Shown here: positions 541-5,445 of the stretch, in pieces
How the letters are laid out: the number at the start of each line of letters is the position of its first letter
Position numbering within the stretch: the first letter of the stretch is position 1
Source: Gallionella sp.
Lineage (GTDB): Bacteria > Pseudomonadota > Gammaproteobacteria > Burkholderiales > Gallionellaceae
Direction: 5' to 3'
NCBI GenBank assembly: GCA_022340615.1
Contig: JAJDNO010000018.1
Location: 1 to 44,186 of the forward strand
Length of the DNA: 44,186 bases
Notes under the pieces: model-generated
Databases searched by the model: none
The model's input: the letters and a program-made list of their open reading frames with translations, nothing else
Told to the model about the DNA's origin: nothing
Made by a program: the position numbers and the translations under genes

Positions 541-1419
541 TCAGGTTCCTGAAATCCGCTCGTGATAGCGGGCGCGATACAGCAGGCGTGGTGCAGTCGC
601 GTCATCCTCAAAGGCAGTGCGATCATGCAGCACGTTGTTGCACAGCAGACCCATGCCGGGTTCCAGACGCAAGCGATGGATGTGCGTCAAGTCGGAAGCA
701 AGCAGCTTTTCCAGCGCGGCAACAGCTGCCAGAGTGGTTGCGTCCTGCTTCCATTCTATGCTGCGGGTGCGGGCGGTATAGCGCATGTGCAGCGCGCCGG
801 TCGTGGGATGGACCGAAAACACCGGGCCGCTTTGAGCGGGGCGAGCCACACCCTGTTCGTCAGTGCGTTCAGGTATCGTCATCGCATCGGTTGCGGACAG
901 AGCCCGGATGAAGTCGGGGTTTTCATCGCGCAGCATCAGGTAGACGATTTCATGATCCAGCAGCCGGTTTTCGCCGCCTTTTCCTGCGCTGTGCACGCAA
1001 TGAAGTACGAAGCTGCGCACTTGGCGGTCAGGCGAATTGTAATAGCCGTCGGTATGCCACCTGATCGCGCGGTCGGTGTAGGGAATATAAGCCTGCCGCA
1101 TTCCATCCTCGGCGCAAACGGTGACACGCGTGATCCCCTTTTCTCCCGCCAGCCAGTTTGCATCCAGGTTGGCCAGTCCGAACTGCAGCCCAAATTGCTG
1201 TACGGCTTGTTCATCAACTGGAACGTCGTGGCAGACGTAAATGACCATGTTGCTACGTTGGCAGCGTTCCAGCAACGCGGCGTGTTCGGCTTTGATCAAT
1301 GCATGCGGATCTCCGATCTCGACAATCAGTTCGCCGGAGTCGGTGATCGCGCGCGCTAGCTTGTGATCGCGCCAGCGCAGATAGGCATCGGTGTTATCGA
1401 GATCAAAAGGGGTTTGCAT
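541..1419 (-). CDS. TauD/TfdA-family Fe(II)/2-oxoglutarate-dependent dioxygenase
   Basis: This 292-residue protein has the marks of the TauD/TfdA family, non-haem iron oxygenases that couple 2-oxoglutarate decarboxylation to substrate hydroxylation. The iron triad is visible as WHTDG (His122, Asp124) and a distal His265 in LLCNNVLHDR. Arginines at about 278 and 282 (RLLYRARY) are placed to bind 2-oxoglutarate. It resembles the catalytic half of gamma-butyrobetaine/trimethyllysine hydroxylases but lacks their N-terminal DUF971 domain. It is the last gene of the minus-strand set that diverges from the dsr operon, 60 bases after the 198-residue gene, so a link to sulfur metabolism is possible, for example on a sulfonate or an amine. 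The substrate is unknown and the family is broad. Confidence 0.8.
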   Translation of the reverse strand: MQTPFDLDNTDAYLRWRDHKLARAITDSGELIVEIGDPHALIKAEHAALLERCQRSNMVIYVCHDVPVDEQAVQQFGLQFGLANLDANWLAGEKGITRVTVCAEDGMRQAYIPYTDRAIRWHTDGYYNSPDRQVRSFVLHCVHSAGKGGENRLLDHEIVYLMLRDENPDFIRALSATDAMTIPERTDEQGVARPAQSGPVFSVHPTTGALHMRYTARTRSIEWKQDATTLAAVAALEKLLASDLTHIHRLRLEPGMGLLCNNVLHDRTAFEDDATAPRLLYRARYHERISGT

Positions 1420-1479: not shown

Positions 1480-2076
1480 TCAATCGCCGCTGGTGACCTT
1501 GCGGATTCGGGTCTGTGACGGTTCCTTTGCGAACAGGTTCTTCATGGTTTTTTCCACCATGTCCACAGCATTGGGTGCTTCGATGCTCATCATCTGGTCG
1601 ACTACCCATTCCACATCCTTTTCGTCCATCACTTCGCGCATGCAGAATGCGAGGTATCGGGTGAAAGCAAATTCGGGACCGTCGTCTCCATAGCGGAATT
1701 CGGCATATTCTCCCGCGCGCTGGTTGAGTTTGTCGATGAACAGCTGCTTGAAATTGGTGGTGCTGTCATCCATCAGGCGGCTCTGGTTTTCTGTCAGGGT
1801 TTCTGCGACGCGGTTTGCCAGGGTGCTGGTGAACGCGTAGCGGTCTTCAGCGGACAATTGACGATGGGCGATGCGGTCCGCTACCTGTATCAGGAATATC
1901 AGGAATTCGGTGATGAATGAAAAATATTGCGGGCCTATCGCGATTTCAAAATTTGCACTGCGGGTATTCTTCAGTGCGTTATCGGCGATGCGCCAGATGG
2001 TAAACGCCATTGCGCCTGCGATTTCTTGCGGCGTTTTCTCTCGTTCACTCTTGAACCATTGGCTTTTGATGCGCAT
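1480..2076 (-). CDS. Conserved-looking hypothetical protein, 198 residues, in the dsr-divergent cluster
   Basis: I do not recognise this family. The protein is soluble, rich in charged residues and likely mostly helical, with a hydrophobic stretch near residues 50-65 (FSFITEFLIFLIQVADRI) that looks like a buried helix rather than a secure membrane span. It has a single Cys in YLAFCMRE, so no metal-cluster motif is evident. The ATG at 2076 is the first in frame. The Shine-Dalgarno signal in front of it is weak, and it follows the tandem-TusA gene by 23 bases, so it is probably translated from the same message. Its role may be tied to sulfur trafficking because of the neighbours, but that is inference only. 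Confidence 0.7.
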   Translation of the reverse strand: MRIKSQWFKSEREKTPQEIAGAMAFTIWRIADNALKNTRSANFEIAIGPQYFSFITEFLIFLIQVADRIAHRQLSAEDRYAFTSTLANRVAETLTENQSRLMDDSTTNFKQLFIDKLNQRAGEYAEFRYGDDGPEFAFTRYLAFCMREVMDEKDVEWVVDQMMSIEAPNAVDMVEKTMKNLFAKEPSQTRIRKVTSGD

Positions 2077-2099: not shown

Positions 2100-2585
2100 T
2101 CAGCCCTTTTTCAGGAAAAATTCATACTCGCCGGCAGCGGCCTCGATCGTGCTGACGATCGTGATTCCGGTCGATTCCGCCCAGCCGACGATGTCGGAAC
2201 GGATGCCCGGGCAATTGCTGATCAGTCTCAGGATTTCCCCGGTTTTCATGCCGTTCAACAGTTTTTTGGCTTCCACGATGGGACCAGGGCAATGCACGCC
2301 GCGAATATCTAGTACAACATTCGCCTGTTGAGAAGCTCCCTTGCCTTTCATCAGGTAATAACCCGTGCCACCATCCGGCATCGGTTCTGTTCTCAATACC
2401 TTGTTGTTGGTCTGTTCAGCCCACGCAAAGAGATCATCCTTGGTACCCGGACAATCTGAAATCAACAGCAGGATCTGGTCCATTTTCAGATCGTCAACCA
2501 CGCGTTTGGCTCCAAGCAGGGGAGCCGGGCAGGTCAGGCCGCGCATATCGAGTTTGACATTTGCGTGCATATCTTTAGCGCTCAT
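2100..2585 (-). CDS. Protein with two tandem TusA/SirA-like sulfur-carrier domains
   Basis: TusA proteins are about 80 residues and carry sulfane sulfur as a persulfide on the Cys of a CPxP motif. This 161-residue protein holds two complete copies: RGLTCPAPLL (Cys19) and RGVHCPGPIV (Cys99), exactly 80 residues apart. Each copy has a second conserved Cys in S-D/N-CPG (Cys45 and Cys125, again 80 apart). The two halves diverge in the residue after the CP dipeptide (APL against GPI), which suggests an old duplication. The ATG at 2585 is chosen over an in-frame TTG at 2606 because the TusA fold begins directly after it. It probably passes persulfide sulfur towards DsrEFH and DsrC. Fused tandem TusA proteins are not the standard Dsr partner, which is a single-domain TusA. 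Confidence 0.88.
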   Translation of the reverse strand: MSAKDMHANVKLDMRGLTCPAPLLGAKRVVDDLKMDQILLLISDCPGTKDDLFAWAEQTNNKVLRTEPMPDGGTGYYLMKGKGASQQANVVLDIRGVHCPGPIVEAKKLLNGMKTGEILRLISNCPGIRSDIVGWAESTGITIVSTIEAAAGEYEFFLKKG

Positions 2586-2620: not shown

Positions 2621-2950
2621 CTAGTATCCACCCTTGCCATAAGGCTGAGGCAGGCCGGCTACTTTTGCGCCTTGTTTGGCCGGGCCTGTTGGGAACAGAT
2701 CATACAGGGCCTTGCTGTCCGCTTCGGGCCAGAATTCATTGACGCCCTTCAGCATATTGCGGAAATTGGGGGTGTGTCCATTTTCGCGGTATTCGTTGCG
2801 CATGTAATTGATGACTTCCCAGTGCTTGGGCGTGAGTTCGATGCCTTCAGCCGCCGCTATAACACTTACAATTTCCTCGCTGTAATCCGGTTCCAGCAAG
2901 TAGCCGTCATCATCAGTCTCGAGTTCTTTTCCTGCTACGGTATAGCTCAT
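2621..2950 (-). CDS. DsrC/TusE-family paralogue lacking both C-terminal cysteines (RspA type)
   Basis: The 109-residue chain aligns along its whole length with the true DsrC at 7644-7979 (for example HWEVINYMRNEY against HWEVINFLREYF, and the same YDLFPTGP/YGLFPYGP region). In the C-terminal arm the two redox cysteines of DsrC are replaced: the equivalent of Cys99 is Ala95 and the equivalent of Cys110 is Lys106. There is no cysteine anywhere in the protein. DsrC-family members of this kind have been set apart as RspA, proposed to be regulatory, in contrast to TusE, which keeps only the last Cys. It cannot carry sulfur. A good GGAG sits ahead of the ATG at 2950. It may bind DsrAB, DsrEFH or DNA as a decoy or sensor. 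Confidence 0.9.
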   Translation of the reverse strand: MSYTVAGKELETDDDGYLLEPDYSEEIVSVIAAAEGIELTPKHWEVINYMRNEYRENGHTPNFRNMLKGVNEFWPEADSKALYDLFPTGPAKQGAKVAGLPQPYGKGGY

Positions 2951-2982: not shown

Positions 2983-3597
2983 TTAATCTTCACTCAGTCC
3001 GGTAATGACTTTATAAGGTATAAAAATACCACAACCAAATTGACGGTCAACGCCGAGACCGGCGTATTGCAAAACAAGCGACGCTTCGGGTTTCAGGTCA
3101 TGCAAAACCAGGCTGTAACCTTGAATGGTTCGCTGACCGTTGTCGACTGTAACGCGCTTGCCGCAAATCAATTTTCCTGTGACGCCTAATTTCCCCATCT
3201 GTTCAGTTATTTCATCGACAAAATGAATTTCATCGCTTGAACCGGTGACCAGGTGGGCGTGAATGGTGGGGTAGGGCTGAATCTGGCGCGTCTTCGCTTT
3301 CCCCAGGCGCAAGGCGCTTCCGGCAACATCGAGTTGTTTTCCCGTCAAGCCTGTCGTAACCGTTTCGGCCATCTTTACCGGTATGCGAATTATCAGCCTG
3401 GAACGTTTGGCAAGCAGGATACCCTGGCTGTTGATTGTCGACTGTAATGGCAGAATTCCGACGAACTTTTCTTCAGCGAGCCAGGGCAGCTGATTCAACA
3501 GCGCATCCCAGAGCGCGGAACGGTAAGCGACGGGCAGCGTTCCACCCTGAAGCTCGAACATCAGGTCGACCATGTCGGGAATGATCTTGTCTGTCAT
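2983..3597 (-). CDS. Cas6/Cmx6-like RAMP-fold protein with no CRISPR locus nearby
   Basis: This 204-residue protein matches my knowledge of the Cas6 variant called Cmx6 (type I-MYXAN). It has an N-terminal DLMFEL strand and the ALWDALLNQLPWL helix (residues 29-40), then RSRLIIRIPV, then GKQLDVAGSALRLG (86-99). The C-terminal glycine-rich element is YAGLGVDRQFGCGIFIP (178-194), the hallmark of RAMP/Cas6 RNA-binding folds. No His occurs before residue 113, so the N-terminal catalytic His of many Cas6 nucleases seems to be absent. The ATG at 3597 overlaps the stop of the 73-residue gene as ATGA, so the two are translationally coupled. No repeats or other cas genes are in the window. It may have been adopted as an RNA-binding factor of the sulfur module. 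Confidence 0.75.
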   Translation of the reverse strand: MTDKIIPDMVDLMFELQGGTLPVAYRSALWDALLNQLPWLAEEKFVGILPLQSTINSQGILLAKRSRLIIRIPVKMAETVTTGLTGKQLDVAGSALRLGKAKTRQIQPYPTIHAHLVTGSSDEIHFVDEITEQMGKLGVTGKLICGKRVTVDNGQRTIQGYSLVLHDLKPEASLVLQYAGLGVDRQFGCGIFIPYKVITGLSED

Positions 3598-3815
3598 TTG
3601 GCCTGCTGTTTCTGTGTATTCGCCCAGTCTTGCATAACGCCTGCCCATTGCTCGGCAGTGGCGGGGTCGATGTCAAAAATGGTGAAGCGCTTGCCTTCCC
3701 GGATACGCAGGCGCAACAGGCTCATTCCGCCCTCTGCGTGATCGATCTGCTGAAGTTCGATCTCCTGACCACCCAGAGGGACCCTGAGTTTTGCCAATTC
3801 ACTGATTATCGCCAT
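3594..3815 (-). CDS. Small hypothetical protein, 73 residues, first gene of the dsr-divergent cluster
   Basis: I cannot name the family. The chain is soluble and has a plausible small alpha/beta layout: MAIISELAKL, then strands around GQEIELQQID and MSLLRLRIREGKRFTIFDID, then a helix ATAEQWAGVMQDWA near the C-terminus. The start at 3815 is chosen over upstream options because it has an AGGAAAA Shine-Dalgarno at a good distance and the fold begins there. The stop overlaps the start of the Cas6-like gene (ATGA), which suggests equal synthesis and possibly a complex. It is the first gene after the shared divergent control region of the dsr operon. There is no cysteine after the chosen start. Confidence 0.75.
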   Translation of the reverse strand: MAIISELAKLRVPLGGQEIELQQIDHAEGGMSLLRLRIREGKRFTIFDIDPATAEQWAGVMQDWANTQKQQAK

Positions 3816-4149
3816 ATTATTTTCCTGTCGTCGGGCTTGTTTGCAATGCTTGCGAACCAATTCTGAATTGATCTTGTCAGAGTTATTAGTCTATCGCTAA
3901 TGTACTTGATTTTGAAATACTACTCAGGGAAGTCAAGCACTACCCATAAGGGTTATTATTGATAACCGCTAAGGGTGATGGATTGTGACAGGTGATATAT
4001 CGTAGTATTCTAATACACGGTAAGACATGGACAGAACAGCATCAGGTTAAGTCCAGACAAATAATATAATACGTTCCCGCCTCTGCCGGGTCATTAAATC
4101 GTTTGCCAGCAGTAAGCCCCAGGCAACGCGACAAAACAGGAGAATTGTT
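3816..4149. promoter_or_regulatory. Divergent control region between the accessory cluster and dsrA
   Basis: This 334-base gene-free stretch must hold promoters for both directions. It contains an inverted repeat GGTTAT-TATTG-ATAACC (3951-3967) and two direct copies of TAAGGGT (3947-3953 and 3970-3976), 23 bases apart. This is a plausible operator for a regulator acting on one or both units. On the minus strand a TTGACT lies at 3936-3931 with no convincing -10 partner. A Shine-Dalgarno AGGAG at 4138-4142 serves dsrA. Confidence 0.55.
3983..4011 (+). promoter_or_regulatory. Possible sigma-70 promoter for the dsr operon
   Basis: TTGTGA (3983-3988) and TATTCT (4006-4011) are separated by 17 bases, each matching four of six consensus positions. 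The inverted repeat at 3951-3967 lies just upstream, in an activator-like position. A second perfect TATAAT at 4065-4070 has no recognisable -35 box. Confidence 0.4.
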
Positions 4150-5445
4150 ATGGCTAAGAAGATGCATGATACCCCAAACCTCGATCAGCTTGAGTCTGGT
4201 CAATGGCCCAGTTTTGTGACCGGCTTGAAAGAGTTGGCCAAGGATAAAGACTATGTAGTGGATTTGCTGGGACAACTCGAAACTTCTTACCAGACCAAAA
4301 AAGGTTACTGGAAAGGCGGCACAGTAGGTGTGTTTGGTTATGGCGGCGGCATCATCCCCCGCTTTACCGAGCTCAAGGATGAAGCCGGCAAGCCGATTTA
4401 CGAAGACTGCACCGAATTCCACACCCTGCGCGTAATGCCGCCTCCCGGCATGCACTATGATACCGATACGCTGCGCAAATTCTGCGATATCTGGGAAAAG
4501 CACGGTTCCGGTCTGATTGCGTTCCATGGCCAGTCCGGCGACATCATGTTCCAGGGCGCGACCACCGAGAATGTGCAGCATGCCTTTGACGAAATCAACG
4601 AGATGGGCTTTGACCTCGGCGGCGCCGGCCCGGCAGTGCGCACCTCGATGTCCTGCGTGGGCGCGGCAAGATGCGAGCAGTCCTGCTACGATGAAGCCAA
4701 TGCCCAGCGCAACGTTCTCAACACCTTCCTCGATGACATCCATCGTCCTTCCTTGCCGTACAAATTCAAGTTCAAGTTCTCCGGTTGCCCGAATGACTGC
4801 ATGAATTCGGTGCAGCGCTCTGATATGGCGGTGATCGGAACATGGCGCGACAACATTCGCACCGATGAAGCGATGGCCAAGCAGTGGTTCGCCAAGCATG
4901 GCATGGACGAGTTGGTCAACGACGTTGTTGCCCGCTGCCCGACCAAGACCCTGCAGCTCAAGCAGATCAAGGATGTCAGGAAGGGATCGAGCATCTCCAG
5001 TGTCGCAGTTAACGACACCCATGCGATCGAGATCGACAATCATGATTGCGTGCGTTGCATGCACTGCATCAATGTGATGACCGGCGCGCTGGCGACCGGT
5101 GTAGACAAGGGCGCAACCGTGCTGATCGGCGGCAAGAGCACCTTGAAAATCGGCGGCTTGATGGGGACGGTGATCGTTCCGTTCATGAAGCTTGAGACTG
5201 AGGATGAAGTGCAGGAACTGGTCGAGCTGGCGCAGCGCACCATTGACTTCTTTGCGGAAAATGCTCTGGAGCACGAGCGCACCGGGGAGATGATCGAGCG
5301 TATCGGCCTGATCAATTTCCTGGAAGGAGTGGAAGTCGATGTTGATCCGAACATGGTTGCGACCCCTCGCACCAATCCGTATGTTCGCACCGACGGCTGG
5401 GATGAGGAAGTTGCCAAGATCAACGCCAAAAAGCAAGCCGCCTGA
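4150..5445 (+). CDS. dsrA: Dissimilatory sulfite reductase alpha subunit, reverse (oxidative) type
   Basis: DsrA forms the alpha2beta2 core with DsrB. Here the enzyme is expected to oxidise sulfur bound to DsrC to sulfite in the cytoplasm, using a sirohaem-[4Fe-4S] centre. The 431-residue length is typical. The sirohaem-cluster ligands are seen as CVGAARC (Cys169, Cys175) and SGCPNDC (Cys213, Cys217). The inserted ferredoxin domain carries CVRCMHC (Cys300, 303, 306) with a further CP at 263. An AGGAG Shine-Dalgarno stands before the ATG. dsrB follows 17 bases later. The direction of catalysis cannot be read from this protein alone; it is inferred from dsrEFH and dsrL in the same operon. Confidence 0.98.
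   Translation: MAKKMHDTPNLDQLESGQWPSFVTGLKELAKDKDYVVDLLGQLETSYQTKKGYWKGGTVGVFGYGGGIIPRFTELKDEAGKPIYEDCTEFHTLRVMPPPGMHYDTDTLRKFCDIWEKHGSGLIAFHGQSGDIMFQGATTENVQHAFDEINEMGFDLGGAGPAVRTSMSCVGAARCEQSCYDEANAQRNVLNTFLDDIHRPSLPYKFKFKFSGCPNDCMNSVQRSDMAVIGTWRDNIRTDEAMAKQWFAKHGMDELVNDVVARCPTKTLQLKQIKDVRKGSSISSVAVNDTHAIEIDNHDCVRCMHCINVMTGALATGVDKGATVLIGGKSTLKIGGLMGTVIVPFMKLETEDEVQELVELAQRTIDFFAENALEHERTGEMIERIGLINFLEGVEVDVDPNMVATPRTNPYVRTDGWDEEVAKINAKKQAA

Follow-up and report, generated by a model that had tools for sequence, protein, structure and literature searches.

Cas6 proteins are commonly read as marks of CRISPR systems. The closest described relatives of the protein reported here are the Cas6 proteins of type I-MYXAN and type I-B systems (Cmx6 and the CAST protein of PDB entry 8fcj), which belong to the same family over the full length and have the same glycine-rich loop and, judging from a predicted model, probably the same fold. 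Most relatives of our protein outside its own bacterial family also keep the D-H pair that follows the first strand. The group differs from these CRISPR proteins in that it was seen without cas neighbours or arrays, follows dsrA, and forms a separate clade, and the protein under study is 26-30% identical to the eight CRISPR-type proteins compared, which are a small set. Cas6e, Cas6f and P. furiosus Cas6 share the RAMP fold with it, whereas it has a tyrosine at position 25 and no known crRNA substrate. The catalytic histidine of Cas6 endoribonucleases lies directly after the first strand, according to the accessible portion of PMC3150331.

On the sulfur side, the nearest described neighbour is DsrC. 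As far as the available sections of the source go, the penultimate cysteine of Allochromatium vinosum DsrC carries sulfur and is required for contact with DsrEFH (PMC3397948). Four further DsrC-type genes are recorded for A. vinosum in the text at hand (PMC3368242), and one of them, Alvin_1508, decreased together with the dsr genes on pyrite in the accessible part of another report (PMC11267869). Literature searches, which left subscription journals mostly out of reach, returned no report of a link between Cas6 and dsr. Cas6 appears nowhere in the available main text of two broad studies of Dsr evolution (PMC11406059, PMC10504309), and the four papers in which Cas6, dsrAB and sulfur oxidation all occur treat Cas6 within CRISPR systems in their accessible parts.

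The Cas6 gene and its divergent gene row

The window, which is the whole 44,186-nucleotide stretch of Gallionella sp. DNA that was analysed, belongs to a draft genome of 78 contigs that is 99.47% complete and holds a single PF09559 (Cas6) gene. A first-pass annotation had called this gene Cas6/Cmx6-like and had named an absence of Cas6 profile matches as an argument against its reading. The product instead matches Cas6 profiles above their cut-offs over its full length. A Pfam profile search aligns nearly all of it to PF09559 (E = 3.5e-55; 187.4 bits, the cut-off being 26.7), the NCBI equivalog profile TIGR02807 (cas6_cmx6) gives 152.6 bits against a cut-off of 98.85, and the PADLOC Cas6 models give E = 1.3e-54. 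The type I-B CAST Cas6 chain 8fcj_B is the sole solved chain matched by sequence (E = 1.1e-15). The structure prediction that had been proposed as a check yielded an AlphaFold2 model of moderate confidence (three sequences, pLDDT 62, pTM 0.56) whose best PDB matches are Cas6 structures, with 8fcu_B (2.4e-14), 8fcj_B, 5yi6, 3ufc, 3qjj and 4z7k at the top of the list; the predicted fold is thus that of Cas6.

The Cas6 gene is under purifying selection. In comparisons with five distinct relatives, drawn from six loci of which one genome supplies two, its dN/dS is 0.15-0.23. These values are approximate because dS exceeds 1 in all comparisons; seven other Cas6 pairs give 0.08-0.26.

Table 1. Features of the window around the Cas6 gene and dsrA
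Feature	Positions	Strand	Evidence and remarks
TauD/TfdA-type dioxygenase	541..1419	minus	PF02668, E 6.5e-25
Conserved helical protein	1480..2076	minus	no Pfam/NCBIfam family; recurs in same gene row
Protein with two TusA domains	2100..2585	minus	PF01206, E 1.1e-35
DsrC/TusE paralogue	2621..2950	minus	PF04358, E 3.7e-34; no cysteine; C-terminus GKGGY; adjoins Cas6
dsr-linked Cas6 family protein	2983..3597	minus	204 aa, from ATG at 3597 to stop at 2983; glycine-rich loop GLGVDRQFGCGIF; residue 25 is Tyr, against His in most relatives
DUF6967 (PF22295) small protein	3594..3815	minus	E 2.3e-31; first gene of divergent row
Divergent intergenic region, Cas6 gene row / dsrA	3816..4149	none	
Leader block before dsrA	4074..4149	plus	conserved in one subclade of family
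dsrA	4150..5445	plus	TIGR02064, 499.5 bits

From DUF6967 the row runs through Cas6, the DsrC paralogue, the double TusA protein, the helical protein (predicted model of low confidence, 49.8) and the TauD-type dioxygenase, all divergent from dsrA (Table 1). The translational coupling to a small gene that had been claimed for Cas6 is borne out by an ATGA in which the Cas6 start overlaps the stop codon of the gene upstream, and the small gene can now be named as DUF6967. The control region that had been described as divergent is likewise present, since the Cas6 row and dsrA share one intergenic region. A search for phages gave no match. DUF6967 adjoins Cas6 in most loci of the order (which we take to be Burkholderiales, the class being presumably Gammaproteobacteria, both in GTDB). 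It also remains by dsrA in order genomes that lack Cas6 (L090, L091, L093, L094), and it is therefore linked to dsr in its own right.

The divergent arrangement recurs widely. Within the family, 83 of 87 places have Cas6 and dsrA on one contig in divergent orientation, separated by a median of 575 bases and in one case by 5 kb; the contigs of the other four places carry no dsrA. Elsewhere in the order the arrangement holds at all 51 of 51 loci (median 617 bases, largest 2.1 kb). Class genomes outside the order show it in 52 of 70 cases at distances of 0.7-4.5 kb (median about 1.8 kb), and a TauD-type gene often lies between dsrA and Cas6 in these members. Another 17 of the 70, all drafts, have Cas6 and dsrA on separate contigs, and in one genome (G912) 41 kb separate the two genes.

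Distribution with dsrA and with cas genes

A genome survey like the one proposed by the first-pass annotation for dsrEFH/dsrC was carried out for dsrA on 150 genomes of the family Gallionellaceae, 300 of the order, class genomes outside the order, and 398 of the phylum. Both genes are present in 80 family genomes and neither in 65; four have Cas6 without a dsrA above the cut-off, and one has dsrA only. Pieces of dsrA are present in three of these four (G093, G097, G103), and in the single dsrA-only genome the contig stops inside DUF6967. All 58 of the 58 Cas6-bearing genomes in the order sample carry dsrA (seven of them shared with the family sample), six others have dsrA without Cas6, and 236 have neither. 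Outside the order, Cas6 occurs in 70 of 76 class genomes with dsrA and in 3 of the 80 searched among 139 taken as dsrA-negative (G811-G1025 outside the dsrA list). In these three the locus is of the dsr type but truncated: all have the TauD neighbour, two have the DsrC paralogue with the KGGY tail, and the contig stops on the dsrA side.

Cas6 was not found in 12 of the 140 dsrA-bearing genomes of the order and class samples. In seven of them (G268, G291, G876, G884, G913, G926, G1006) the contig stops short of its expected site, and in five (G230, G278, G361, G419, G1010) the site is visible; Cas6 is therefore not needed by every Dsr system. It is retained in two genomes of about 1.1 Mb that are 98 and 99% complete. 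The phylum sample, scored for Cas6 only, gave 5 of 398 genomes, all within the order, which suggested a gene special to the order; the 70 of 76 class genomes exclude this. As a separate observation, extra dsrA copies occur at L092, L101, L102 and L103 (in G291, G210, G386 and G235), and the stretches fetched around them hold no match to dsrB, E, F or H.

The absence of a CRISPR array and of other cas genes that had been reported for the window is borne out for direct repeats and for the cas families looked for. There are no direct repeats of at least 20 bases within 150 bases across the window, and among the families looked for, neither cas1 nor PF01905 (Cas7/DevR, the type I-B Cas7) was found in its draft genome. 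The Cas6 gene lies neither in a cas gene row nor beside a CRISPR array. As a control, six of seven related genes on plasmids do sit within annotated cas gene rows. PF01905 is absent from 117 of the 117 family genomes searched, and cas1 was found in 33 of 84 family genomes with Cas6 and in 33 of 66 without it, so its presence is independent of Cas6. Relatives found mainly next to CRISPR arrays had been named in advance as evidence against a sulfur role, and the outcome in the genomes examined is the opposite. Cas6 tracks dsrA in three samples, with cas1 unrelated, and its presence and place, which follow dsrA and not cas1, lend strong support to the proposed adoption by the Dsr system. We consider an accessory role in Dsr very probable.

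In a rapidly built tree of 92 proteins, which samples 20 of the 40 family sequences and adds 34 from elsewhere in the order, 30 from the class and eight of CRISPR type, one branch splits the 84 dsr-linked proteins from the eight CRISPR-type proteins with an SH-aLRT of 99; the tree contains these two groups only. The CRISPR-type set is small: besides one PDB chain it comprises seven proteins from cyanobacterial plasmids, and the gene of one of these (L065) has no annotated cas neighbours. The dsr-linked Cas6 proteins are a subfamily apart from the eight CRISPR-type proteins compared. Tree distances of DsrA and Cas6 are correlated across 54 shared loci (Mantel r = 0.57), and none of 2000 permutations gave a value as high. 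Two order genomes (G384, G413) combine a dsrA that scores like class dsrA, a Cas6 that falls inside the class group, and a TauD gene between them, which is the class arrangement. The pieces therefore appear to have moved together.

Conserved residues and the KGGY-tailed DsrC paralogue

The first histidine of the window protein is residue 113, as had been observed correctly from its sequence. In the predicted model, the place of the catalytic histidine appears to correspond to position 25, where the window protein has tyrosine. Histidine occupies this position in 1 of 40 family sequences, 28 of 34 from elsewhere in the order, 29 of 30 from the class and 7 of 8 CRISPR-type sequences. It has thus been lost in 39 of 40 family sequences and kept in 57 of 64 dsr-linked sequences outside the family, so the loss is local and dsr-linked Cas6 is not in general a dead nuclease. 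The earlier claim that the catalytic histidine is lost holds for the window protein, but it fails as an argument for adoption, since those 57 of 64 keep the residue; the same count rules out the loss as a general property of dsr-linked Cas6. The CAST Cas6 of solved structure has asparagine at this site, and the residue at position 25 therefore need not be decisive alone.

Other positions separate the groups more sharply or unite them. A second histidine, at position 41, occurs in six of the eight CRISPR-type sequences and in none of the 104 dsr-linked ones. E123 (103 of 104 dsr-linked against 0 of 8 CRISPR-type) and K196 (102 of 104 against 0 of 8, one of the eight ending short there) mark the dsr group; R65 is a less clean mark (103 of 104 against 1 of 8). 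G146 was rejected as a mark, because the CRISPR-type sequences have glycine there in 7 of 8 cases in one alignment and in 0 of 8 in the other. The C-terminal glycine-rich element that had been described is indeed present before the last strand, and it is kept in the dsr-linked relatives, with G180 and G182 each in 103 of 104 sequences, G188 in 102 and G190 in all 104. As read from the sequences, this residue pattern favours a protein that still handles RNA but has a new partner or a new substrate.

The protein encoded next to Cas6 matches PF04358 over nearly its whole length, as DsrC and TusE do, but a KGGY tail replaces the penultimate cysteine and the window copy is cysteine-free. Among 52 KGGY proteins picked by their tail, the penultimate cysteine is gone in 52 of 52; four still have a cysteine among the 20 C-terminal residues, and 43 are entirely cysteine-free. 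A cysteine-free DsrC group is called RspA, and a literature search found no paper that joins this name with DsrC.

The KGGY-tailed DsrC accompanies Cas6 in every one of 91 order loci (some genomes being counted twice) and adjoins Cas6 in 20 of 30 class loci, selected from the 70 class genomes with Cas6; at one locus (L123) it lies beside Cas6 on the opposite strand. In the ten other class genomes it lies elsewhere in seven, was not found in G867 and G1013, and is a broken piece in G996. This piece (C90:56964-57098, profile positions 68-112) contains an in-frame TGA and lies about 10 kb from Cas6. A search of 22 dsrA-negative control genomes yielded no KGGY-tailed copy in any of them; five have only a TusE, which ends differently. 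It does occur in dsrA genomes in which Cas6 was not found (G1006, G1010, G361, G419); among further Cas6-less dsrA genomes, the DsrC copy of G884 ends in KAGY and that of G913 is partial. A contig end truncates the expected Cas6 site in G1006, G884 and G913 but not in the other three. These copies exclude a strict joint gain and loss with Cas6, and the KGGY-tailed DsrC is therefore part of the Dsr set and not of Cas6 alone. This KGGY-tailed paralogue, which lacks the penultimate cysteine, is widespread in dsr loci.

Possible roles of the dsr-linked Cas6

We propose that Cas6 is a dedicated accessory protein of the reverse dissimilatory sulfite reductase (rDsr) system that uses the Cas6 fold outside CRISPR and has a role on RNA, a composite reading whose chances we put at about even. 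RNA binding itself is probable from the conserved residues: Cas6 may bind a hairpin in RNA by way of its conserved glycine-rich loop together with basic residues. It would then act post-transcriptionally on some Dsr-related RNA, the likeliest being the dsr message or the message of its own gene row, and the adjoining KGGY-tailed DsrC might be a protein partner through which the state of the sulfur relay is signalled. In the lineages that keep the histidine, which are the majority, Cas6 may cut or process that RNA, whereas in the window's family, with tyrosine in its place, it may bind only or cleave with other residues. In its most specific form, a CRISPR-free Cas6 endonuclease or hairpin binder would work with the KGGY-tailed DsrC to process or lock a Dsr-related transcript and so couple expression to relay load, a scheme that we hold only tentatively.

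The dsr message is a possible but somewhat doubtful target on present sequence evidence. The dsrA leader folds with ordinary energy when compared with shuffled sequences (z = -0.11, -1.30 and +1.36 for three sequences), and covariation within it is slight, with a compensatory change in one cell. The consensus fold predicted from the same leader alignment differs from the other reading of its structure. No Rfam family matches across the window at gathering thresholds.

Cas6 may instead be a protein scaffold that holds the KGGY-tailed DsrC and helps in the assembly or gating of DsrAB/DsrEFH with no RNA involved. Such a role would suit the adjacency of its gene to a DsrC paralogue without the penultimate cysteine, the absence of E123 and K196 from the CRISPR-type proteins compared, and the loss of the histidine in the window's family. 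We nevertheless think it unlikely, as a scaffold would need neither a near-universal glycine loop nor a histidine kept by most sequences outside that family, and Cas6 and the KGGY-tailed DsrC are not always adjacent and are each found without the other.

If Cas6 does handle RNA, its substrate could also be tRNA or another stable RNA, and Cas6 would then join the Dsr sulfur relay to RNA thiolation. The TusBCD-TusE-MnmA relay resembles DsrEFH-DsrC. In the part of the source available, DsrEFH and DsrC are similar to TusBCD and TusE (PMC3397948). The double TusA gene in the same row and the RNA-binding fold fit this reading as well, but the adjoining DsrC paralogue lacks the penultimate cysteine that would carry the sulfur, and a connection to thiolation is quite improbable. 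That Cas6 is an ordinary CRISPR protein which processes arrays in trans and stands near dsrA by accident is ruled out for practical purposes, despite the score above the Cas6/Cmx6 equivalog cut-off and the cas1 genes of some Cas6-bearing family genomes, by a cas1 that is no commoner with Cas6 than without and is missing from the window's genome, by the absence of PF01905 from every family genome searched, and by the adherence of Cas6 to dsrA in three samples.

All three of three dsr-linked proteins tested score above the TIGR02807 cut-off. The equivalog calls them type I-MYXAN Cas6, and a likely component of a widespread sulfur-oxidation pathway is therefore easily classed as a defence protein. 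Should the proposed Dsr role be correct, the rDsr gene set of this class misses a component in the descriptions found, and a CRISPR RNA-handling protein has settled in energy metabolism; to our knowledge there is no other such case. The tie with Cas6 hints at an RNA-linked layer in a central energy pathway, the oxidation of stored sulfur.

A minor observation concerns the plasmid relative L065 on the Gloeobacter plasmid pGMOR1. This gene is annotated as Cas6/Cmx6 and has no annotated cas neighbours within 7 kb, and it lies near genes of the phosphoadenosine phosphosulfate reductase family.
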